Shown here piece after piece: positions 3,112-18,521 of a DNA stretch of 41,426 bases. How positions within the stretch are numbered: the stretch's first letter is position 1; every line of letters begins with the position of its first letter. Source of the DNA: Anaerolineales bacterium (lineage in GTDB: Bacteria > Chloroflexota > Anaerolineae > Anaerolineales > Villigracilaceae); the NCBI GenBank assembly GCA_030680795.1, contig JAUXUL010000034.1, positions 1 to 41,426 of the forward strand, written 5' to 3'. Under the pieces are notes generated by a model that saw only the letters and a list, made by a program, of their open reading frames with translations, was not told where the DNA came from and searched no databases. The position numbers and the translations under genes were made by a program.

Positions 3112-4224
3112 ATGGAAAAAATAACTCCTCCCGCCTACATAGGCTTCGGCATGTTGACCCCCGTCTATATTATGGCATTAGATCGCCTGCCCAAGCACAA
3201 CACAGGTGCGATCGTGCATCAGGTCAGCGAATTCGTTTATGACGATGCGGCCATCATTGCCTGCGTTTTGCGTCAGTGGGATGTGCCAACTGCCATGATC
3301 GGCACATCCGTTGGAGATGACCTGTTGGGTCATGAGGTTGCTCGCAAATTAAGAAATTGGGGTGTGTTGGGCAAGGTGCGTTTTACTAAAAAATATAAGA
3401 CACCCATCGAAGTGAATGTGTCTGATAAAAAAGGCGCGCGCACGTATTTCTGGCAGCGCTCGCCTGAAATATTAAGTACGCTTGATTCTGCCAATCTTTC
3501 GCTTATTAAAAAATCGAAGTTGCTTTACGTGGATTGGTACGACGGAGATCACATCATGCGCGCTATGGATGAAGCTAATCGTGCGAATGTGCCGGTGTTC
3601 CTCAATCTGGAGCATGGGCATAAAGACCCTGAGATATTGAAAAAGTATGCAAGTCGCGCAACGATCTGTCAGGCCGTGACAGATGCCGCGCAGATCGGTA
3701 AAAAACAAGCCATGCTTTCTGTGGCTAAAAAATTGTTCAAGGCCGGCATCAAGACCGCCATTATCACCATGGCGAGCCAGGGCTGTTTGGTGGTGCAAGG
3801 TGAGAGGATCGTCAGAGTCTACGCGCCCAAAGTGAAAGCAGTGGATGGCTCTGGCGCCGGGGCAACTTTTTCATCCGGGTTTATCTATGGTTATCTCAAA
3901 GGTTGGAGCCTGGAAGAATCCGTTTGTTTTGCGATTGCCGCCGCTTCACTAAAAGTTACACATTCGGGTTTGGAGATGTTCCCTGTGGAAGAGATCATCG
4001 CGCTGGCAAGCAAGTTACGTGTGCAGCACATGATCTACCGTGACGACCAGTTCTATACAATCAAGAAATTTCTGCGCCTGCCACAGAAAGACAGGTTTGC
4101 GGATAATCCACTCGTTAAAGAAGGCAGGAAGCTGGCCAAAGAAGGCAGAGAATTTGCAGAGAAACTTATGTCAAAAAAGAAACCCCAGCAAAGAAAAAAG
4201 ATCAAGAAATCACTGGTTGAGTAA
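3112..4224 (+). CDS. PfkB/ribokinase-fold protein with altered catalytic motif
   Basis: The 370-residue protein has the PfkB carbohydrate/nucleoside kinase layout: an N-terminal substrate region, then KVKAVDGSGAGATFSSGFIY near residues 241-260, which aligns with the family signature DTxGAGDxFxxGF. In active members the Asp of GAGD is the catalytic base; here it is Ala251 (codon GCA at 3862-3864). The two residues after the first Asp are also changed. The C-terminus (about residues 340-370) is Lys-rich. It lies between a dimethylglycine dehydrogenase-like gene and an MttB-family gene. It may be a sugar-binding regulatory protein or a kinase with an altered mechanism; if active, its substrate is unknown. 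Confidence 0.75.
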   Translation: MEKITPPAYIGFGMLTPVYIMALDRLPKHNTGAIVHQVSEFVYDDAAIIACVLRQWDVPTAMIGTSVGDDLLGHEVARKLRNWGVLGKVRFTKKYKTPIEVNVSDKKGARTYFWQRSPEILSTLDSANLSLIKKSKLLYVDWYDGDHIMRAMDEANRANVPVFLNLEHGHKDPEILKKYASRATICQAVTDAAQIGKKQAMLSVAKKLFKAGIKTAIITMASQGCLVVQGERIVRVYAPKVKAVDGSGAGATFSSGFIYGYLKGWSLEESVCFAIAAASLKVTHSGLEMFPVEEIIALASKLRVQHMIYRDDQFYTIKKFLRLPQKDRFADNPLVKEGRKLAKEGREFAEKLMSKKKPQQRKKIKKSLVE

Positions 4225-4233
4225 TGCCAAAAG

Positions 4234-4350
4234 AATTAAACACGAAGGGCACAACGCCTGCGCTGAGCTTGTCGAAGTATACACAAAGATTGGAAAGGGG
4301 TAATGTGGACTTGTCTTTTCCTTCGTGACCTTTGAGTACTTTGTGTTTAA
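4234..4350. repeat. Dispersed inverted repeat, family A copy 2
   Basis: The left arm ATTAAACACGAAGGGCACA begins at 4234 and the right arm CTTTGAGTACTTTGTGTTTA ends near 4349. Between them at 4262-4277 lies GCTGAGCTTGTCGAAG, the reverse complement of the CTTCGACAGGCTCAG motif seen elsewhere. It fills most of the gap between the PfkB-like and MttB-like genes. Confidence 0.7.
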
Positions 4351-4379
4351 TAAATCTTTTATTAATAAGGATGTGAACC

Positions 4380-5816
4380 ATGTCATTTGCAGAACTTCTT
4401 ACACAAGAGCAAGTACAAAGAATCCACGATGCCGCGCTTGAAATCCTTGAAGACGTCGGGTTGAAGGTCCGTTATGAACCCGCGCGTGATATTTTTGCAA
4501 AGCACGGTTGTCCTGTGGATGGCGAGCGTGTCAAACTGCCGCGCGCGGTGGTTGAAAAATATCGTCAGGTCTACCCATCCTCATTTACATTTTATGCGCG
4601 CGACCCGAAATTTGATAAAACGATTCCGCGGGATAGCCCGGTCATCGTAACAGCCAGTTCTGCACCGGATATCATTGACCCTGTAACAGGTCAGGAAAGA
4701 CGCGCTGAGTCTGGTGATATCGCGCGCATCGCGCATCTCATCAACGAACTACCCGGCTATGACGTATTCTCCATTTCCACTTTGGCGGACGACGCGCCGG
4801 CGGATCAATTCACAACCTCGAGGCTGTATCCTGCCCTCAAGTATTGTCTCAAACCGATCCGTGTCACCACTACCGATCGCAAAGATACAAACAGTATTAT
4901 GGATATGGCCTATATCGTTGCAGGCGGGAAGGAAGCTTACAAAGAACATCCCTTCCTTACGCATCATTATTGCCCTGTTGTTTCACCGCTGACAATGGAT
5001 AATCTGTCAACTGAAAATGTGATGTATTTTGCCAGCCAGGGCCTGCCAGTTTACCCGACCATCGTGCCAAATGCGGGACTTACTTCACCCATGTCCATGG
5101 CGGGGACGCTGGCGCAAGGCAACGCTGAATTTCTTGCCGCGGCAACGCTTATACAAATGGTGAAGGAAGGCACGCCGTTGATCTATGCGACGCTTGGTAC
5201 TGTGGCGGATATGCGTACGGGCGCTTATACCTCTGGGGGAATTGAATGTGGCATGTTACACATGGCTTTCGCACAGATAGCCCGCTTTTACAATGTGCCG
5301 TGCGGCGGGTACATTGGTTTGACCAATTCCAAATTGAATGACGCACAGGCAGGATACGAAACGGGCATGTCTGCCATGGGCGGGTTAGTAAGCGGCATGG
5401 ATATGTTCAACATTGGCGGTCTGATCGATGCGTTGAAGACTTTTGACTTTGCCAAAGCCGTGATTGATGATGAAATTTCGCAAATGATGAAACGTGTCAA
5501 ACGCGGCGTGTCGTTTAATGAAGAAGATCTGGGTGTGAATTTGATCAAAGAGATCGGGCCGGGAGGCTCGTATATTGTCGCCAAGCACACGATCAGCCGC
5601 ATGAAGACCGAAGCCGTTATGACGAAATTAGCGGACCGTGATCCGCGCTCGATTTGGGTAAAGAAGGGTTCGACCGATATTCAAACGCGGGCTCTGAAAC
5701 GAGTCAAAGAGATTATGGCGAGTAATACATCTCCCTTGATTTCTCCGGAGTTGGACGCGAAGCTCCACGCCGAATTTAAGGGTATGATAGCGGGTGAGTT
5801 GAAACCGATAGAGTAA
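4380..5816 (+). CDS. Trimethylamine methyltransferase (MttB)-family protein, non-pyrrolysine type
   Basis: The 478-residue protein starts at ATG 4380 behind AAGGATG. The whole sequence has the MttB family pattern (for example DAALEILEDVGLKV, VTASSAPDIIDPVTGQERRA and AGTLAQGNAEFLAAATLIQM). Archaeal MttB contains an in-frame UAG read as pyrrolysine; this frame has no internal stop, so it belongs to the larger group of non-pyrrolysine homologues, some of which demethylate quaternary amines such as glycine betaine and pass the methyl group to a corrinoid protein. No corrinoid protein or activase is visible in the window. With the upstream DMGDH-like flavoprotein it suggests stepwise demethylation of a quaternary amine. 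Substrate identity is inference. Confidence 0.88.
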   Translation: MSFAELLTQEQVQRIHDAALEILEDVGLKVRYEPARDIFAKHGCPVDGERVKLPRAVVEKYRQVYPSSFTFYARDPKFDKTIPRDSPVIVTASSAPDIIDPVTGQERRAESGDIARIAHLINELPGYDVFSISTLADDAPADQFTTSRLYPALKYCLKPIRVTTTDRKDTNSIMDMAYIVAGGKEAYKEHPFLTHHYCPVVSPLTMDNLSTENVMYFASQGLPVYPTIVPNAGLTSPMSMAGTLAQGNAEFLAAATLIQMVKEGTPLIYATLGTVADMRTGAYTSGGIECGMLHMAFAQIARFYNVPCGGYIGLTNSKLNDAQAGYETGMSAMGGLVSGMDMFNIGGLIDALKTFDFAKAVIDDEISQMMKRVKRGVSFNEEDLGVNLIKEIGPGGSYIVAKHTISRMKTEAVMTKLADRDPRSIWVKKGSTDIQTRALKRVKEIMASNTSPLISPELDAKLHAEFKGMIAGELKPIE

Positions 5817-5819
5817 TTA

Positions 5820-6008
5820 CATGTCATTGCGAGTATTGTCACATAGAAAATTCATGTCGTTGCGAGGGCATTCTTATTATTAGCCCGAAGCAATCCCCAA
5901 CACTGCGAGGAGATTGCTTCCCTTCGACAGCCCTTCGACAGGCTCAGGTTAACAGCTCAGGACAGGCGTCGAAAAGAGCAACTGCCCTCCTCGCAACTTC
6001 AAATCGCA
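5820..6008. repeat. Intergenic REP-like cluster (GTCATTGCGAG / GAAGCAATC type)
   Basis: The 217-base gap holds two related units, ATGTCATTGCGAG (5820) and ATGTCGTTGCGAGGG (about 5853), then AAGCAATCCCC and its inverted partner GATTGCTTCCC, then CCCTTCGACAGGCTCAGG and CCTCCTCGCAACT. These complementary blocks can fold into a long hairpin. A reverse copy of the TCGTTGCGAGGG unit lies near 12937-12953. No gene is seen here. Confidence 0.65.
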
Positions 6009-6033
6009 GTGGCATATCATTTTAGGAGATATT

Positions 6034-6654
6034 ATGTGGAAATTGTTTAAACGCAAGGAAGATATTTTTCAGAAATTGATCGAGCAGCAGGCTTCCATTA
6101 CGTATGAATCATTAAGACTGTTGGTCAGGTATTTTGAGACAGGCGATGCAGATGTCGCCGAACAGCTTTCGATAAAGGAAAAGGAGGCGGATGAGGTGCG
6201 CCGCATCCTGATTGATGAGTTGAATCACACCTTTGTCACGCCATTTGACCGCGAAGATATATTTTCCCTGTCCCGTTCCATTGATGATGTTGTGGATTAT
6301 GCAGACAGTACCGTGATGGAGATGGTCATTCTCAACGTGAAATCCACGCCATTTATGCTGCGGATGGCAAACTTGCTGAAAGATGCGGCGTATGAGATCT
6401 GGTATGCGGTTCAACGCCTTCCCAAGCATCCAAATGTGGCCACTGATCACGCGCAGCGTGCGAAGGCGTTGGAGAACCGTGTCGAAGCGGTGTACCGTGA
6501 AGCCGTCGCAGACCTGTTCAGCGGCCCCGAAGATATTCATCACGTGGTTGAGATGTTGAAGATGCGCGAAGTGTATCGTCATCTTTCCAATGCCGCGGAT
6601 CGCGGCGATGAAGCAGCAAACACCATTGCCGATATTGTGGTAAAGAAAACTTAA
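6034..6654 (+). CDS. DUF47 / PhoU-like phosphate transport accessory protein
   Basis: The 206-residue all-helical protein starts at ATG 6034 behind AGGAGATATT. The opening (KLFKRKEDIFQKLIEQQA) and the DREDIFSLSRSIDDVVDYAD segment are typical of the DUF47 family (COG1392), distant relatives of PhoU. Members are usually encoded next to PiT phosphate permeases and are thought to control their activity. Here the permease gene begins within a few bases of the stop codon, so the two are almost certainly co-transcribed and act together at the inner face of the membrane. Confidence 0.88.
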   Translation: MWKLFKRKEDIFQKLIEQQASITYESLRLLVRYFETGDADVAEQLSIKEKEADEVRRILIDELNHTFVTPFDREDIFSLSRSIDDVVDYADSTVMEMVILNVKSTPFMLRMANLLKDAAYEIWYAVQRLPKHPNVATDHAQRAKALENRVEAVYREAVADLFSGPEDIHHVVEMLKMREVYRHLSNAADRGDEAANTIADIVVKKT

Positions 6655-12836: not shown

Positions 12837-13157
12837 AATCTTCTCTCACTCCAATTTTTTTTGCATCGATGTAATATTACTTGATTTTAATGTGTTAGGA
12901 GTGTCCAAATTCAAAAACATAAATCGGGGAGGCCACCCTCGCAACGACATGAGTGTGTTGGATTTTGGACACTTTCAATATCTTGAGGTATAAACGTTTC
13001 GGCAAGGTGAAACGCCGCCTCGCATGCTTGACGAACCAGGGTTATGAAGTGAGGTTGAATTGATCCTGTGAAATAGAGAGGATTTCAAGATGAATGTCAA
13101 TTGTCTTATTTCAACAAAAGGATTAGACTCCTTGGCTATACTGGCAGGAGGCTGATT
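12837..13157. other. Intergenic region before the radical SAM operon
   Basis: About 320 bases with no gene. GTGTCCAAA (12901-12909) and TTTGGACAC (12964-12972) are perfect inverted arms around a REP-like block with CCCTCGCAACGACATGAG (reverse of the unit near 5853). The right arm overlaps the -35 element of a candidate promoter. A second -10-like TATACT lies at 13136-13141, just before the ribosome site of the zinc-ribbon gene. Confidence 0.5.
12965..12994 (+). promoter_or_regulatory. Candidate promoter for the zinc-ribbon/DUF2207/radical SAM operon
   Basis: TTGGAC (12965-12970) and TATAAA (12989-12994) are spaced by 18 bases. They face the operon and would leave a leader of about 155 bases. 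The -35 box lies in the right arm of an inverted repeat. Confidence 0.4.
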
Positions 13158-13514
13158 ATGAAAACCATCGGGAATATTGCGGCTGCGATCCTGATCTTCT
13201 TCGGTGTATTGTTCATTTGGGGCGCAGGTGGAAATCAGGGCGGCGGTTGGACATGGGTATGCGGCGGATTACTCAGTGTGCTGTTCGGATTCGGCCTGAT
13301 CTGGTTCGCAAGCCGCAAACCACAGGTGGCAGGGGAAACAAATGTTACTCTCAAAGTTGATCTCCCCGCACAAACAAAGATCGAATCCATGAACTGCAAG
13401 AACTGCGGAGGCGCATTGAAAGCCGACAATATCAAAATGCTGGCTGGCGCACCCACCGTTGAATGTCCCTTTTGCGGCACAACTTATCAACTTACTGAAG
13501 AACCGAAATGGTAA
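13158..13514 (+). CDS. Small membrane protein with C-terminal zinc ribbon
   Basis: The 118-residue protein starts at ATG 13158 behind a strong AGGAGG at 13146-13151; an earlier ATG at 13101 is not needed. Two hydrophobic segments (about residues 5-25 and 35-53) are followed by a soluble tail with CKNCGG and CPFCGT, a two-CxxC zinc ribbon. I recognise no named family. It is separated by about 30 bases from the DUF2207-like gene on the same strand and is probably co-transcribed with it. It could help assemble or regulate the downstream membrane protein. Confidence 0.72.
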   Translation: MKTIGNIAAAILIFFGVLFIWGAGGNQGGGWTWVCGGLLSVLFGFGLIWFASRKPQVAGETNVTLKVDLPAQTKIESMNCKNCGGALKADNIKMLAGAPTVECPFCGTTYQLTEEPKW

Positions 13515-13543
13515 AGAACATTTGAACGAAGAAAGGTTATCTT

Positions 13544-15193
13544 ATGAAACGAAGAATAGCCCTGTTTCTCGCCTTGCTACTTGCCTTCAGTTTGACGATC
13601 AGCGTTTCTGCACAAGACTATTACTTTAGTCTCGATAAAGAGATCGTCAACGTTTACTGGAACTCAGATGGGACGATGGCCCTGGATTATCTGCTTACAT
13701 TCACGACACAACCCAGCGGGCATACCATTGAATTTGTGGATGTAGGTATGCCCAACGGTAATTTCGATTTCAACAGCATCCAGTCCAGCATCAATGGCAA
13801 TCCCCTCTCCATCTCTAAAGATTTTCAAGGTACGGGTGGAAACGGCTTTGCTGTCGAAATGGGTCCGTATGCGATTATGCCTGGGCAAACGGGGACAATA
13901 CACGTCTCCGTTGGTCGCATTTCGCAAGTTTTGTATAAGGATGATCAGGATGAAAATTATACCAGCGCGGTGTTTACCCCCCTGTATTTTCAAAGCAATG
14001 TGATCACCGGCAACACGGATATCACAGTTATCTATCATCTGCCGCCATTGGTAAACCCCGAAGAACCAAAGTGGCATTCCGCGCCAAGCGGTTTTCCATC
14101 TGAGCCGGAGACTGCGTTTGATTCGCAGGGACGTATAACATATACGTGGCGCAACCCCGGCGCAAACGGGAAAACACAATACAAATTTGGCGCCTCATTT
14201 CCGAAAAGCTATGTCCCCGCAGATAGCATTGTCACAGTGAGTGTTCCGAATACATACCGATCGTCGGATACCATCTTCTTCATCTTGTGTATTGGTTTCT
14301 TTGGCCTCATGTTCCTCGGCATTCCATTACTTACGATTATCGCGGGCAATCGCCGCAAACTTCAATACATGACGCCGCGAATTTCCATTGAAGGGCACGG
14401 CATTAAGCGCGGACTCACCGCGGTCGAAGCCGCAATTCTCATGGGAGAATCCCTGGATAAGGCAATGACCATGATCCTGTTCGGAGTGATCAAAAAAGAA
14501 GCCGCACAAGTGGTCTCGCGCGACCCGCTAAAAGTGGAAATATCCCCCTCGCTGCCTGATGGTTTGCATGAATATGAAGTGAATTTTCTGGTGGCTTTCA
14601 AAGAAGGTAATACGAAAAACCGTAAAGATTTATTACAAGAGATGACCGTTAAATTAGTTCGTTCCGTTTCTGAAAAAATGAAAGGCTTCAGCCGCCTTGA
14701 AACGATCAACTACTACAAGAACATCATGCAAAAGGCATGGCAGCAGGTAGAGCAGGCGGATACGCCCGATGTGCAGGGGCAATTTTTCGAGCAGAATCTC
14801 GAATGGACCATGCTGGACAGGGATTACGACGACCGCACGCGGCGTGTATTTCGAGGCCCGGTCTTTATTCCCACTTGGTGGGGACGCTACGATCCAACCT
14901 ACTCGAGGCCTGCTTCCGTTCCAGGAGGTTCATCCTCAACATCTTTACCTTCAGTCCCGCGTTTACCCGGCTCTGATTTCGCTGCCTCTGTCGCCGTTGG
15001 TGTACAAACCTTCTCGCAGAAAGTCATCGGTAACGTCACAGACTTTACCAGCCGTGTGACGAATGTGACCAATCCTGCTCCCAAGCGCTCCTCCAATGGT
15101 TCTCGTGGTGGTCGCAGTGGAGGTGGTCGTTCCTGTGCTTGTGCATGTGCTTGTGCCGGCTGCGCTTGTGCATGTGCGGGCGGAGGAAGATAG
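13544..15193 (+). CDS. DUF2207-like membrane protein with seven-cysteine Cys-Ala tail
   Basis: The 549-residue protein starts at ATG 13544 behind GAAAGG. A signal peptide (about residues 1-23, ending SVSA) leads to an extracytoplasmic beta-rich region (to about 240). A membrane helix follows at about 245-268 (FILCIGFFGLMFLGIPLLT), then a cytoplasmic domain and a Ser/Gly-rich linker. The last residues read CACACACAGCACACA then GGGR: seven cysteines alternating with alanine. The layout resembles DUF2207 proteins. With the N-terminus exported, the Cys tail should lie in the cytoplasm, within reach of the radical SAM enzyme encoded next. The codons of the terminal GGR contain the ribosome site of that enzyme, so the two are translationally coupled. 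I propose the tail is a modification substrate; this is inference. Confidence 0.75.
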   Translation: MKRRIALFLALLLAFSLTISVSAQDYYFSLDKEIVNVYWNSDGTMALDYLLTFTTQPSGHTIEFVDVGMPNGNFDFNSIQSSINGNPLSISKDFQGTGGNGFAVEMGPYAIMPGQTGTIHVSVGRISQVLYKDDQDENYTSAVFTPLYFQSNVITGNTDITVIYHLPPLVNPEEPKWHSAPSGFPSEPETAFDSQGRITYTWRNPGANGKTQYKFGASFPKSYVPADSIVTVSVPNTYRSSDTIFFILCIGFFGLMFLGIPLLTIIAGNRRKLQYMTPRISIEGHGIKRGLTAVEAAILMGESLDKAMTMILFGVIKKEAAQVVSRDPLKVEISPSLPDGLHEYEVNFLVAFKEGNTKNRKDLLQEMTVKLVRSVSEKMKGFSRLETINYYKNIMQKAWQQVEQADTPDVQGQFFEQNLEWTMLDRDYDDRTRRVFRGPVFIPTWWGRYDPTYSRPASVPGGSSSTSLPSVPRLPGSDFAASVAVGVQTFSQKVIGNVTDFTSRVTNVTNPAPKRSSNGSRGGRSGGGRSCACACACAGCACACAGGGR

Positions 15194-16563
15194 TGAAAAG
15201 TGTATTTCGATCCTCCTCCCTGGTGGGTGTTCCTTCAGCGGGACTCCATCATTACACACGGGAAACTGATTTTGAAAAGTCTCGCATCCATTTACGCATC
15301 GATGCTGATGGGCATGGCACGCTGATCGTCAATGCAAATCGTGTCATGCATTTGAATCCAACGGCGACATACATGGCGTGGTTGACCCTTGAAGGAAAGA
15401 CAGAAGGCGAAGGAATACGGGCTCTCACATCCCGCTATTCTGTTTCAAGGCTGCAGGCCCAGGAGGATCTTTCTTCTTTCATATTTCAATTTGAAGAATT
15501 GATCCGCCCGGATGGGGCCTGCCCTGTCCATGAAATCGAGCTTGAATCGCTCATGCCTTTCAGCGTGCGTCCCTCTGCCCCATATAGAATGGATCTGGCA
15601 GTCACCTATCGCTGTAACAATGATTGTGCACACTGCTACAACGCCCGGGAACGAAACTTCCCCGAACTCAGCACAGAACAATGGTTCAAGATCCTTGACA
15701 GGCTCTGGAGCCTGGGCATTCCGCATATTGTCTTCACAGGCGGCGAAGCCACACTTCGAAACGACCTGCCAGAGTTGATCAAACACGCAGAATTCAACGG
15801 ACAGATCACAGGACTGAACACGAACGCCCGACGACTGTCCGATGAAATGTATGTACAAAAACTCGTCGAAGCCGGACTTGATCATGTACAAATTACCGTT
15901 GAGTCTTATGATGAACAAATCCACGATGAGATGATGCAGGCCAAAGGCGCATTCAGGCAAACCATCGCCGGACTTCAGAATACATTACAAAGCCAACTGT
16001 ACGTCATGACGAACACCACCATGCTTCGCACCAATGTTCATACAATTCCTGATACATTGGATTTTCTTGCAAACATGGGCGTTTCCACCGTTGGACTGAA
16101 TGCGCTTATTTATTCCGGTCATGGGCTGACAGTGGGTACGGGGCTGCGCGAAAGCGAATTGCAATCTATCCTTGCCATCGCCACGCGTAAAACCAACGAG
16201 CGCGGGCAAAGACTCATCTGGTACACACCCACTCAATATTGTCAATTCGATCCCACCACGAACCAACTTGGCATAAAAGGCTGCACCGCCGCGCTTTACA
16301 GCATGTGCATTGAATCGAACGGGAACGTATTACCATGTCAGTCATACTACCATCCGCTTGGGAATATGCTTACCGATTCATGGGATTCGATCTGGAACCA
16401 CGAACTCTCTGTTCGTCTGCGCGAACGACGCGGTTTACCGAATATGTGCAATGACTGTTCGATCGTCGCCGAATGCGGGGGCGGATGCCCGCTTAATTTT
16501 GAAAGTCATCGCGAAAAATATGGCGTGAATCATGAAGTTGTTTCGTTATCGGTTCTGAACTGA
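15193..16563 (+). CDS. PqqD-radical SAM-SPASM peptide-modifying enzyme
   Basis: The 456-residue protein starts at GTG 15193, overlapping the previous TAG by one base, with GGAGG at 15182-15186. Residues about 33-105 resemble PqqD, the peptide-recognition element of RiPP enzymes (LIVNANRVMHLNPTATYMAW). Cys141, Cys145 and Cys148 form the CxxxCxxC site for the SAM-binding 4Fe-4S cluster, and GGEATLR is the SAM-binding GGE motif. The C-terminus is a SPASM domain with Cys364, 372, 382, 419, 422, 428 and 432, enough for auxiliary clusters. Such enzymes make thioether or other crosslinks in peptides. Its position directly after a protein with a poly-Cys-Ala tail suggests that tail as substrate. The reaction type cannot be predicted. 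Confidence 0.88.
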   Translation: MKSVFRSSSLVGVPSAGLHHYTRETDFEKSRIHLRIDADGHGTLIVNANRVMHLNPTATYMAWLTLEGKTEGEGIRALTSRYSVSRLQAQEDLSSFIFQFEELIRPDGACPVHEIELESLMPFSVRPSAPYRMDLAVTYRCNNDCAHCYNARERNFPELSTEQWFKILDRLWSLGIPHIVFTGGEATLRNDLPELIKHAEFNGQITGLNTNARRLSDEMYVQKLVEAGLDHVQITVESYDEQIHDEMMQAKGAFRQTIAGLQNTLQSQLYVMTNTTMLRTNVHTIPDTLDFLANMGVSTVGLNALIYSGHGLTVGTGLRESELQSILAIATRKTNERGQRLIWYTPTQYCQFDPTTNQLGIKGCTAALYSMCIESNGNVLPCQSYYHPLGNMLTDSWDSIWNHELSVRLRERRGLPNMCNDCSIVAECGGGCPLNFESHREKYGVNHEVVSLSVLN

Positions 16564-16604
16564 CCCGAGTATATGCGTATAGATGAAAAGTGTTTGGAGT
16601 AAAA

Positions 16605-17747
16605 ATGAATATTTTCAATCGGCTGGCCGACCGTTACTCAAAGATCGAAGCCCTGCCCTCTGGCACATACCATCTGCAAGCCATACAGGATAACAATCCG
16701 TTTCGTCTCCACCTGCGCCTGCAAAGTAATGGCGCAGGTGTGTTGATCGTGAACGCCTCCACAGTTTTGCAATTGAATCCTACCGCGGCTGAATACGCAT
16801 TCCATTTCATCAAGGACACCGAACCCGAAGAAGCAGCAAAACAGATCGCAGCACGCTATCGGGTCAGTAAAGGGATGGCGCTCGAAGACTACAACGATTT
16901 CGTGGATCGAATTCAAACCTTGATATCAACCCCGGACCTTGACCCCTTCTCTTTTTTTGACTTCACGCGGGTCGCCCCTCATTCAGCGGATCTCACCGCT
17001 CCGCTTCGCCTCGATTGCGCGCTGACCTATCGCCTGCCCGAAAATACTCAGGCAGAATATGCGCCCTCTAAACGTGTAGACCGCGAGTTGACCACCGATG
17101 AATGGAAAGCGATCATTGATAAAGCCTGGCAGGTCGGCATCCCTCACATCACATTCACGGGTGGGGAAGCCACTTTGCGAGAGGATCTCCCCATGCTGAT
17201 CGCTCAAGCGGAAAAGAACGGTCAGGTCTGCGGGCTTCTCACCGATGGATTGAAACTCGCCGATAGAAAATATCTCGATATCCTCTTACAAACCGGGCTC
17301 GATCACATTCTTTTTATTCTCCAACCCGATCTGGATGACTCGTGGAAGGCGCTGGAATTAATCATGCTAGAGGATATCTTCGTAACGGTTCACCTCACAA
17401 TAAGCCATGAGAATGTAATAAATTCAGAAGTAACCATGAAGCGACTTGCAAGTCTTGGAGTGAAAAGTTTCTCAATGACAGTCGTAGAAGATTCTTTGCG
17501 TGAAGCATATGACACGCTTCGTGAAAAAGCCGCTTCACTGGAGCTTACTCTCAAGTTTGACCTGCCGGTTCCCTACTCCGATCATAACCCGGTTGCTTAT
17601 GAAACGCAGGAAGATGATAACCCTGAAGGTGCTGGCAAAGCGTGGTTGTATGTCGAGCCGGATGGCGATGTCCTACCTGCGCAAGGGATGGCAAATAAGG
17701 TATTAGGTAATTTCCTTAAGGATGAATGGAAAACCATCTATTCATAA
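16605..17747 (+). CDS. Degenerate radical SAM paralogue lacking cluster cysteines
   Basis: The 380-residue protein starts at ATG 16605 behind GGAG (16596-16599); GTG 16590 is a weaker alternative. It is a clear paralogue of the preceding enzyme: PqqD-like N-terminus (LIVNASTVLQLNPTAAEYAF) and a shared core around GIPHITFTGGEATLREDLP. The CxxxCxxC site reads L144-xxx-T148-xx-E151, so all three cluster ligands are gone while GGE (186-188) is kept. The SPASM region survives only as VEPDGDVLPAQG, with Ala359 where the paralogue has Cys382, and the protein ends soon after. It cannot bind a radical SAM cluster in the usual way. It may be a peptide-binding or scaffolding partner, like other pseudoenzyme subunits in RiPP pathways. 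The frame is intact, so it is not an obvious pseudogene. Confidence 0.8.
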   Translation: MNIFNRLADRYSKIEALPSGTYHLQAIQDNNPFRLHLRLQSNGAGVLIVNASTVLQLNPTAAEYAFHFIKDTEPEEAAKQIAARYRVSKGMALEDYNDFVDRIQTLISTPDLDPFSFFDFTRVAPHSADLTAPLRLDCALTYRLPENTQAEYAPSKRVDRELTTDEWKAIIDKAWQVGIPHITFTGGEATLREDLPMLIAQAEKNGQVCGLLTDGLKLADRKYLDILLQTGLDHILFILQPDLDDSWKALELIMLEDIFVTVHLTISHENVINSEVTMKRLASLGVKSFSMTVVEDSLREAYDTLREKAASLELTLKFDLPVPYSDHNPVAYETQEDDNPEGAGKAWLYVEPDGDVLPAQGMANKVLGNFLKDEWKTIYS

Positions 17748-17759
17748 AGCAGTAAGGAA

Positions 17760-18521
17760 ATGAACTGGCACACACGCTACATACAACAAGCGAAATGGAC
17801 TCGCGACCTGCGGGCCTACCTCTTCCACAAAGCAGGGTTATATGAGGCACGACGCGTACTCGAAATTGGATGCGGCACAGGCGCCATCCTCTCCGAATTA
17901 CCTGACCATATCCCGCCTCAAGGCCTGGACATTGACCCTGCTGCGCTGGCCCAATGCAGAATCCATGTTCCGACCGCCTCCTTGATACAAGGGAACGCGT
18001 TACAACTCCCCTATCGCGACAATTCAGTTGAGATTGTGTACTGTCACTTCCTTCTGCTCTGGGTGCGTGACCCAATTCAAGCTTTACTTGAAATGAAACG
18101 CATAACGAGATCAGGCGGGCACATCCTTGCGTTCGCCGAGCCCGATTACACAGCACGCATTGACAAGCCTGATGAACTCATCCCGTTGGGAAAATGGCAA
18201 ACGGAATCATTAAAGAGACAAGGTGCAGACCCGGGAGCGGGAGCACGACTGGCAGCTCTATTCTTTGAGGCGGGGATAAATATAATTGAAACGGGAACAA
18301 TTCAATCTGTAGACATCGATCCGTCACCCGAAGAATGGTCCCTTGAATGGGAAATTATCGAATCCGATTTACAGGGAGTGATAGCAGATAAAAACATCCA
18401 AAAAATGAAACGCCTGGATCAACGTGCCTGGGCGCGCGGGGAACGAGTATTTCATGTGCCCACATATTTTGCATGGGGCAGCACAGGCCATGAAAGAGAT
18501 TCGGATCTATCTACGAGCTAA
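17760..18521 (+). CDS. Class I SAM-dependent methyltransferase
   Basis: The 253-residue protein starts at ATG 17760, 12 bases after the preceding stop, with AAGGA upstream. VLEIGCGTGAIL is motif I, DIDPAALAQC fits the acidic residue after strand 2, and YCHFLLLWVRDP matches the motif IV/post-I region of Methyltransf_11-type enzymes. It is the last gene of the operon with the two radical SAM paralogues, and could methylate the same product or be a general small-molecule enzyme. No terminator is evident before the convergent PNPOx gene. Confidence 0.85.
   Translation: MNWHTRYIQQAKWTRDLRAYLFHKAGLYEARRVLEIGCGTGAILSELPDHIPPQGLDIDPAALAQCRIHVPTASLIQGNALQLPYRDNSVEIVYCHFLLLWVRDPIQALLEMKRITRSGGHILAFAEPDYTARIDKPDELIPLGKWQTESLKRQGADPGAGARLAALFFEAGINIIETGTIQSVDIDPSPEEWSLEWEIIESDLQGVIADKNIQKMKRLDQRAWARGERVFHVPTYFAWGSTGHERDSDLSTS

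Follow-up and report, generated by a model that had tools for sequence, protein, structure and literature searches.

A cassette of five tandem genes in a member of the Anaerolineales (contig JAUXUL010000034.1 of assembly GCA_030680795.1, analysed over 41,426 nucleotides, hereafter the window) encodes a membrane protein, P0002, that ends in alternating Cys-Ala pairs and, directly downstream, a PqqD-radical S-adenosylmethionine (SAM)-SPASM enzyme, P0003. Sequence comparisons make it probable that P0003 modifies the tail of P0002. The product may be a thioether, to which we give a little short of an even chance. We take both views because the nearest solved relative of the enzyme is a sactisynthase and because QhpD builds thioethers within a whole protein.

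Conservation and distribution of the Cys-Ala tail

The DNA of the tail reads (CA)4-G-(CA)3-GGGR, in agreement with the seven Cys-Ala pairs described in an earlier note on the window. When P0002 was aligned with 42 homologues (found with the whole of P0002 as query, and excluding locus L040 and rows under 480 amino acids), residues 533-549 had a mean identity of 99.6% to the window protein, whereas the ectodomain reached 61%, the cytoplasmic domain 69% and the Gly/Ser stretch next to the tail 52%. No other part of the protein is as conserved as the tail, which is under extreme selection. Forty-four distinct DNA tails, with most synonymous codons in use, encode nearly one amino-acid sequence, and this mixture of synonymous codons rules out a DNA microsatellite or a chance origin. 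The strict tail is present in 48 of 50 family loci (44 genomes); the other two are L058, which has a variant tail, and L040, which resembles an assembly chimera.

A profile that excluded the tail was searched against 301 genomes of the phylum Chloroflexota and recovered 20 loci with a Cys-Ala (CA) tail (L202-L221), two with a tail of CHSA repeats (L222 and L226) and two without a Cys tail (L223 and L225). Among 30 Asgard loci fetched in the same way, 23 had a CA tail and one a CHSA tail, four were cut by contig ends and two were broken fragments. The tail is therefore found independently of its presence in the query.

We also scanned for the tail first, using the DNA pattern (CA)3-x-(CA)3 against one genome per species in GTDB r220, which gave at least 119 stretches. 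Among the matches listed (n = 119), 118 are real tails and one, in a 37-residue open reading frame (ORF) at L089, is a chance match. Measured from the start of the match, the protein ends after 17 residues in 98 cases and after 19 in 16. The tail is the end of the protein in 115 stretches, and 114 end in GGGR, which the pattern did not demand. A DUF2207-like protein is present in 114 stretches; the other five comprise three contig edges, one cut ORF (L159, 326 amino acids in full) and L089. Unbroken tail ORFs range from 326 to about 800 residues.

The matches listed come from Chloroflexota, Planctomycetes, Armatimonadetes, Acidobacteriota, Aminicenantes, Fermentibacteria, Zixibacteria, Coatesbacteria, Edwardsbacteria, Hydrogenedentota and Bacillota, and among archaea from Hodar-, Heimdall-, Loki-, Sigyn-, Hermod- and Bathyarchaeota, so that the tail cannot be a marker of a single clade. 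Most carriers are metagenome-assembled genomes; those with strain names are Bellilinea caldifistulae, Ornatilinea apprima, Levilinea saccharolytica, Leptolinea sp. HRD-7 and Hungatella hathewayi. Tails are sparse in Bacillota (two of 196 genomes in the order of Hungatella, that genus included), where they are internal and followed by AGCSxKDFY or a close variant, with the enzyme gene directly upstream. One bathyarchaeotal protein (L124, 72-1655) has a long, irregular Cys-Ala tail, CACACASCACACACVSCACACAGGGVGR.

The earlier note called P0002 DUF2207-like. This holds for remote similarity: a profile of 28 P0002 homologues aligned by hhalign to four DUF2207 proteins with a probability of 97.1% (E 5e-11, 305 columns), and the modelled topology has the same domain order. 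It does not hold at the level of the Pfam model, since P0002 has no Pfam match at E 0.1, PF09972 included, and no NCBIfam match, while a PF09972 search of the window genome at 1e-5 returned nothing. Other tail proteins, scanned against Pfam and NCBIfam, had no match over any cut-off, and a PDB sequence search with the membrane-protein profile gave no match. Foldseek returned partial matches to M1-peptidase N-domains and oligosaccharyltransferase subunits (TM-score about 0.25), which we did not use. DUF2207 proteins are described as having a large extracellular N-domain, a transmembrane segment and a large intracellular C-terminal part with a Gly/Ser-rich stretch (PMC10457818). P0002 shares this topology but differs at its end: four full-length DUF2207 proteins from the family end in Gly/Ser, without Cys.

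An AlphaFold2 model of P0002 (25-row alignment; mean predicted local distance difference test score, pLDDT, 79.7; predicted TM-score 0.46) contains a signal-peptide-like helix, a beta ectodomain at residues 28-220, one transmembrane helix at 241-273 and a helical cytoplasmic region, with residues 515-549 disordered (pLDDT <50). Because the model has a signal-peptide-like helix and a single transmembrane helix, the tail is predicted to be cytoplasmic, where P0003 would be; the same features speak against a periplasmic tail of the kind predicted for TIGR04222 proteins. A crude hydropathy count over 82 sequences, which gives weak support for this topology, found one transmembrane segment after the signal in 55, two in 16, none in six, three in four and four in one, the counts of none and two being partly due to cut N-termini and an amphipathic helix.

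Pairing of the tail protein with the enzyme

The earlier note suggested a survey of Chloroflexota for co-occurrence. In 150 genomes of the same family, 118 have both the membrane protein and the enzyme, three have the enzyme only, none has the membrane protein only and 29 have neither. The enzyme was counted as any match at 1e-30 (for one positive the match is to the degenerate paralogue alone), the number of first-look candidates scored in the genome searches was limited, and the 118 include fragments, with alignments reaching the last residue in 115 and falling short in G107, which resembles a chimeric join, G022 and G062. Across the 301 genomes of the phylum the membrane protein occurs in 21 and the enzyme in 22, with 21 common to both. 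In 148 genomes from the Asgard phylum of the Loki genome G434, 49 have both, three the protein only, six the enzyme only and 90 neither.

In all 20 family loci the nearest intact enzyme follows the tail stop on the same strand, as it does for 20 of the 22 Asgard tails caught by the search expression, a count that omits L268 (variant tail, enzyme on another contig). The two Asgard exceptions are L266, in a Loki genome where enzyme and methyltransferase stand together at another locus, as they do in the Sigyn genome, and L285, where the enzyme adjoins the protein but lies mostly beyond the fetched stretch.

The tail-first scan gives a similar picture. Among the matches listed (n = 119), an enzyme-family match is present within 102 stretches, 91 with the CX3CX2C motif and 11 partial or degenerate. 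Three of these 11 (L086, L106 and L138) have full-length enzyme matches below 1e-168 elsewhere in the genome; the other eight (L110, L111, L145, L147, L156, L163, L165 and L191) were scored within the stretch only. The 16 remaining real-tail cases, searched genome-wide, all have a match at 1e-30 or better, which is of full type (1e-112 or better) in 13; the genomes of L167 and L184 contain enzyme fragments only, and L151, whose contig ends 180 bases past the tail, has a degenerate-type match only. A full-type enzyme thus accompanies 107 of the 118 real tails among the matches listed, with ten having only a cut, fragmentary or degenerate-looking match and one the paralogue only. The genome with the chance pattern match, L089, has no enzyme.

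Membrane-protein relatives that lack the Cys tail provide a comparison. Neither L225 nor L223 has a radical SAM gene within the 3.6 kb fetched around it, while both genomes carry a full cassette elsewhere. L225 is a tail-less paralogue of the zinc-ribbon/membrane-protein pair, and L223 (682-3315, minus strand) encodes a Ser/Thr kinase fused to the same beta ectodomain, with a formylglycine-generating-enzyme-like domain recognised by eye.

Distant homologues of P0002 end in a second type of tail, composed of ACHS/CHSA repeats, in Chloroflexota (L315 and L316) and Asgard archaea (L290, L305-L308, L313 and L314). The matching enzyme gene adjoins in L315 and L316, is divergent and within 1 kb in L305, L306 and L308, and is found at a distance of about 6 kb in L307 and, on the L290 contig, of about 2 kb. 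A maximum-likelihood tree of 63 rows places eight CHSA-type enzymes from Chloroflexota and Asgard archaea in one clade (support 100/98), apart from the CA-type enzymes of bacteria and archaea alike. Six of the eight were seen alongside a CHSA tail, with L303 and L304 labelled by enzyme similarity only; L253, labelled as outgroup, groups with the CA-type enzymes and so raises the change count of the CA label, and the tree contains two pairs of identical rows, each probably from the same genome. Enzyme type tracks tail type, not organism.

At three further loci (L100 2065-3744, L109 2807-4429 and L237 1294-3024) a second radical SAM enzyme, related to the first, has GGGCSGCSGSCGTGG in its own C-terminus, and the gene after it encodes a shorter DUF2207-like protein that lacks a Cys tail. 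Here the Cys-rich segment seems to have been relocated onto the enzyme.

The earlier note proposed that the radical SAM enzyme acts on the membrane-protein tail. We looked for loci that keep the enzyme but have lost the tail and found few unexplained exceptions, which supports the proposal. Among the enzyme-only family genomes, G027 has just the degenerate paralogue (L311, G027:C35:2598-3743), which might have a function of its own without the membrane protein or an intact enzyme, and G140 has an enzyme cut by a contig end. Several observations weigh against tail modification or its expected chemistry. In G112 the enzyme gene is shortened at its N-terminal end and no tail protein adjoins it. 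No membrane protein was found in four Asgard genomes that have enzyme and methyltransferase (G674, G681, G693 and G699) or in two that have a CHSA-clade enzyme (G712 and G751), and tail protein and enzyme are at separate loci in Loki and Sigyn genomes. In the other direction, the CHSA loci L313 (G733) and L314 (G772) lack a CHSA-clade enzyme, with only distant radical SAM matches genome-wide (best 3.1e-23 and 4.0e-43). For G772 the absence is probably real, because the contig that bears the tail, 2.58 Mb long, makes up almost all of the 2.6 Mb genome. Finally, P0003 reaches no NCBIfam equivalog cut-off (the best model is PqqE), so that it could not be placed in a known family, and PqqE- and heme-type models score it as high as crosslinker models; C-C bond formation, decarboxylation or another reaction is therefore possible. 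Incomplete assemblies could account for most of the unpaired cases, not obviously for G772. The tail of G772 (minus strand, 3853-6195) is slightly irregular, with one CHAA among the CHSA units, and is possibly decaying after loss of the enzyme.

The pairing could also be read without any modification: the tail would be a metal- or redox-active Cys ladder in its own right, and the enzyme and methyltransferase would serve a separate small molecule or another protein of the same pathway. Alternating cysteines would fall on one face of a strand, CHSA repeats add histidine, the zinc-ribbon partner P0001 suits metal biology, and the near-complete G772 has its tail but lacks the clade enzyme. In Streptococcus mutans, a DUF2207 mutant is described as less tolerant of oxidative stress (PMC10457818). 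We nevertheless consider this reading quite improbable, given that enzyme clade follows tail type across bacteria and archaea, that the two tail-less relatives have no enzyme nearby in genomes that carry the cassette elsewhere, and that the RRE domain of SkfB-type enzymes is described as binding peptides (PMC6231123).

Possible chemistry of the tail

All three domains of P0003 named in the earlier note exceed their Pfam cut-offs (PqqD 29.3 against 23.4 bits, Radical_SAM 93.8 against 29.5, SPASM 40.4 against 21.5). P0003 contains the CX3CX2C motif, whose three cysteines are invariant in 28 aligned rows, and the SPASM cysteines apart from the final one, which is missing. The nearest solved sequences to the enzyme profile are SkfB (4e-32) and PqqE (2.6e-27), followed by 5v1q, which we take to be SuiB, and 5wgg (CteB; PMC6231123). 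Sactisynthases link Cys sulfur to an alpha-carbon (PMC6231123, PMC8172795), and SkfB and CteB are described as binding their peptide through an N-terminal RRE domain (PMC6231123). The sactisynthases SkfB and AlbA, together with CteB, resemble P0003 in having an RRE/PqqD-type N-domain, a radical SAM core and a SPASM or Twitch domain. Their substrates are short leader-core peptides, whereas the candidate substrate here is the end of a 549-residue membrane protein, and P0002 is not a short precursor with leader and core. Alanine is an acceptor in thuricin CD. Streptosactin is described as using Ser and Gly acceptors, while AlbA refuses Ala at its own acceptor sites (PMC8172795), so that Ala as a thioether acceptor is plausible but not given.

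A full-sized substrate has a precedent in quinohemoprotein amine dehydrogenase, in which the radical SAM enzyme QhpD forms thioethers within a whole protein subunit, QhpC (PMC8172795). QhpC differs in being a small enzyme subunit with defined bridges, whereas the P0002 tail is a disordered, low-complexity segment of a membrane protein. Short repeated motifs paired with radical SAM/SPASM enzymes are also known from the ACGX-repeat and His-Xaa-Ser systems, which are short peptides with different repeats; His-Xaa-Ser enzymes were met here solely as NCBIfam model names. A comparable arrangement is that of TIGR04222 membrane proteins, whose Gly/Ser-rich, Cys-bearing C-terminal tail is described as a predicted substrate of MNIO (DUF692) enzymes, a type of enzyme that acts on ribosomally synthesised and post-translationally modified peptides (RiPPs) (PMC12452194). 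There the enzyme is not a radical SAM protein, the tail is predicted to be periplasmic rather than cytoplasmic, and tails are diverse and loosely associated (MNIO is missing from 490 of 1372 TIGR04222 genomes; PMC12452194), in contrast to the near-invariant tail described here. The TIGR04222 model does not match P0002 (E 0.1) or the tail proteins of L107, L086, L144 and L159 (E 0.5), and no MNIO enzyme was found among the eight window proteins scanned around the cassette, other loci not having been scanned for it.

On the reading we prefer, P0003 would be a dedicated maturase of the P0002 C-terminal tail. Its PqqD-type N-domain would dock the C-terminal region of P0002 on the cytoplasmic side, and 5'-deoxyadenosyl radical chemistry would modify the alternating Cys-Ala stretch, most likely by joining Cys sulfur to a backbone carbon of Ala in thioethers, each at a cost of 2 Da; these might form a cross-strand ladder that turns at the central Gly. 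P0004 might be a non-catalytic partner in docking or cluster completion, P0005 might methylate the product or the free C-terminal GGGR, and the envelope protein would end up with a tail that is stiff and active in redox or metal chemistry. The analysis shows the gene pairing, the extreme conservation of the tail, the predicted topology and the agreement of enzyme clade with tail type, whereas the action of the enzyme on the tail, the thioether product, the parts played by P0004 and P0005 and the physiological function are inferred.

The tail could be the target of other chemistry, such as epimerisation, C-methylation, desaturation or C-terminal decarboxylation. This overlaps with tail modification by P0003 and departs from it only in the thioether; we regard it as a real possibility, though on balance doubtful. 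Radical SAM-SPASM enzymes carry out varied reactions. In addition, a methyltransferase gene is near the tail in 63 of 103 long loci with a free GGGR and in none of three Bacillota loci with internal tails or six CHSA loci (overlapping loci included, and genes inside the fetched stretch only), a restriction to free GGGR tails that is a lead towards C-terminal methylation. The invariant, repeated cysteines are most simply explained by chemistry at Cys itself, and the nearest solved relative is a sactisynthase.

A further alternative is that part of the tail is released as a small cofactor or signal, as in pyrroloquinoline quinone (PQQ) or mycofactocin, with the methyltransferase finishing the product, a protease cutting it and the membrane protein acting as scaffold. 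PqqE is the top-scoring NCBIfam model for P0003, scaffold-based synthesis is described for TglA (PMC9016710), and among 20 loci peptidase-like neighbours recognised by eye are of HExxH (9), M28-like (3) and signal peptidase I-like (7) type. The window cassette contains no protease gene, the protein stops with the tail in 115 of the 119 matches listed, and the near-invariance of its whole length would be needless for a single released residue, which together make release unlikely.

Cassette partners and wider meaning

The close packing of five same-strand genes reported in the earlier note is confirmed by their coordinates (13158-18521, plus strand), with a largest gap of 41 bases.

Table 1. 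Genes of the cassette and the proposed site of modification, in window coordinates.
Feature	Position	Strand	Description
P0001	13158-13514	+	118-aa membrane protein with C-terminal Zn-ribbon (two CxxC); recurrent first cassette gene
P0002	13544-15193	+	549-aa DUF2207-related membrane protein; proposed substrate
Cys-Ala tail CACACACAGCACACAGGGR	15134-15190	+	P0002 residues 531-549; first Cys-Ala at residue 531; proposed modification site
P0003	15193-16563	+	PqqD-radical SAM-SPASM enzyme; GTG start at 15193 overlaps P0002 stop by one base
P0004	16605-17747	+	Degenerate radical SAM paralogue; PqqD-like N-terminus retained
P0005	17760-18521	+	Class I SAM-dependent methyltransferase; Methyltransf_11 1.6e-18 (Pfam)

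The zinc ribbon of P0001 gives sub-threshold Pfam matches only. In 19 of the 20 loci L063-L082 a homologue of P0001 precedes the tail protein; L082 is cut at that point.

The description of P0004 as cysteine-free is only partly right: it lacks the CX3CX2C and SPASM cysteines but still contains two Cys. Its PqqD match (20.4 bits) is under the Pfam cut-off of 23.4, and it scores 38.9 bits against the TIGR04347 pseudo-SAM/SPASM model, whose NCBIfam cut-off is 525. Eight sampled degenerate paralogues form one clade in a maximum-likelihood tree (100/100). The presence of the partner goes with the state of the intact enzyme: where the last SPASM Cys is missing the partner is present in 50 of 52 rows, and where it is kept the partner is absent in 13 of 16, a count over 68 of 75 rows (those with more than 1.2 kb of room downstream or a partner seen) that is not corrected for phylogeny. 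P0004 is a probable non-catalytic partner and may supply a ligand or a second docking domain. The earlier note envisaged a pair of radical SAM proteins. The partner is indeed common, but 15 of the 68 loci have an intact enzyme and no partner was seen there, and the pair is therefore not essential to the idea of tail modification.

The methyltransferase assignment of P0005 in the earlier note is borne out by its Pfam match. Its homologue stays beside the enzyme in Asgard genomes in which the tail protein is elsewhere.

Other features of these loci include an inverted repeat in the gap upstream of the cassette (window 12900-12973, with 20-nt arms, 85% complementary and 34 nt apart) and a tandem duplication of the membrane protein in L076 (3767-7736), where both copies have a full Cys-Ala tail and a single enzyme gene follows. 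Extra genes between or after the enzyme genes in L063-L082 (n = 20, families assigned by eye) encode a protein of about 337 residues with a C-terminal transmembrane helix (12/20), phosphatase-like (11/20), HExxH-protease-like (9/20) and signal-peptidase-like (7/20) proteins, a PAS-like protein of about 115 residues (7/20) and C-GCAxxG-C-C-like proteins (3/20).

Taken at its broadest, the proposal is that Cys-repeat tails on full-length membrane proteins of DUF2207 type are crosslinked, in bacteria as in Asgard archaea, by radical SAM enzymes dedicated to them, that there are at least two such tail codes (CA and CHSA), each with its own enzyme clade, and that the product is a new membrane-anchored redox or metal cofactor. 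In this full form it is tentative and lies somewhat on the doubtful side of even. RiPP enzymology has centred on short peptides that are modified and then released. In the present case a resident membrane protein is predicted to provide the substrate with its tail, and the near-frozen sequence of that tail in Asgard archaea and many bacterial phyla points towards a housekeeping function and not to an antibiotic. In the open-access literature, searched by titles and the starts of abstracts and with subscription papers mostly outside its reach, we found no description of this pairing of tail and enzyme. The nearest published idea is the action of MNIO enzymes on TIGR04222 membrane-protein tails, as described in PMC12452194. 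If the proposal is true, it would represent an unrecognised and widespread protein modification, would give DUF2207-type proteins a testable function, and would provide a simple, repetitive substrate for radical SAM crosslinking.

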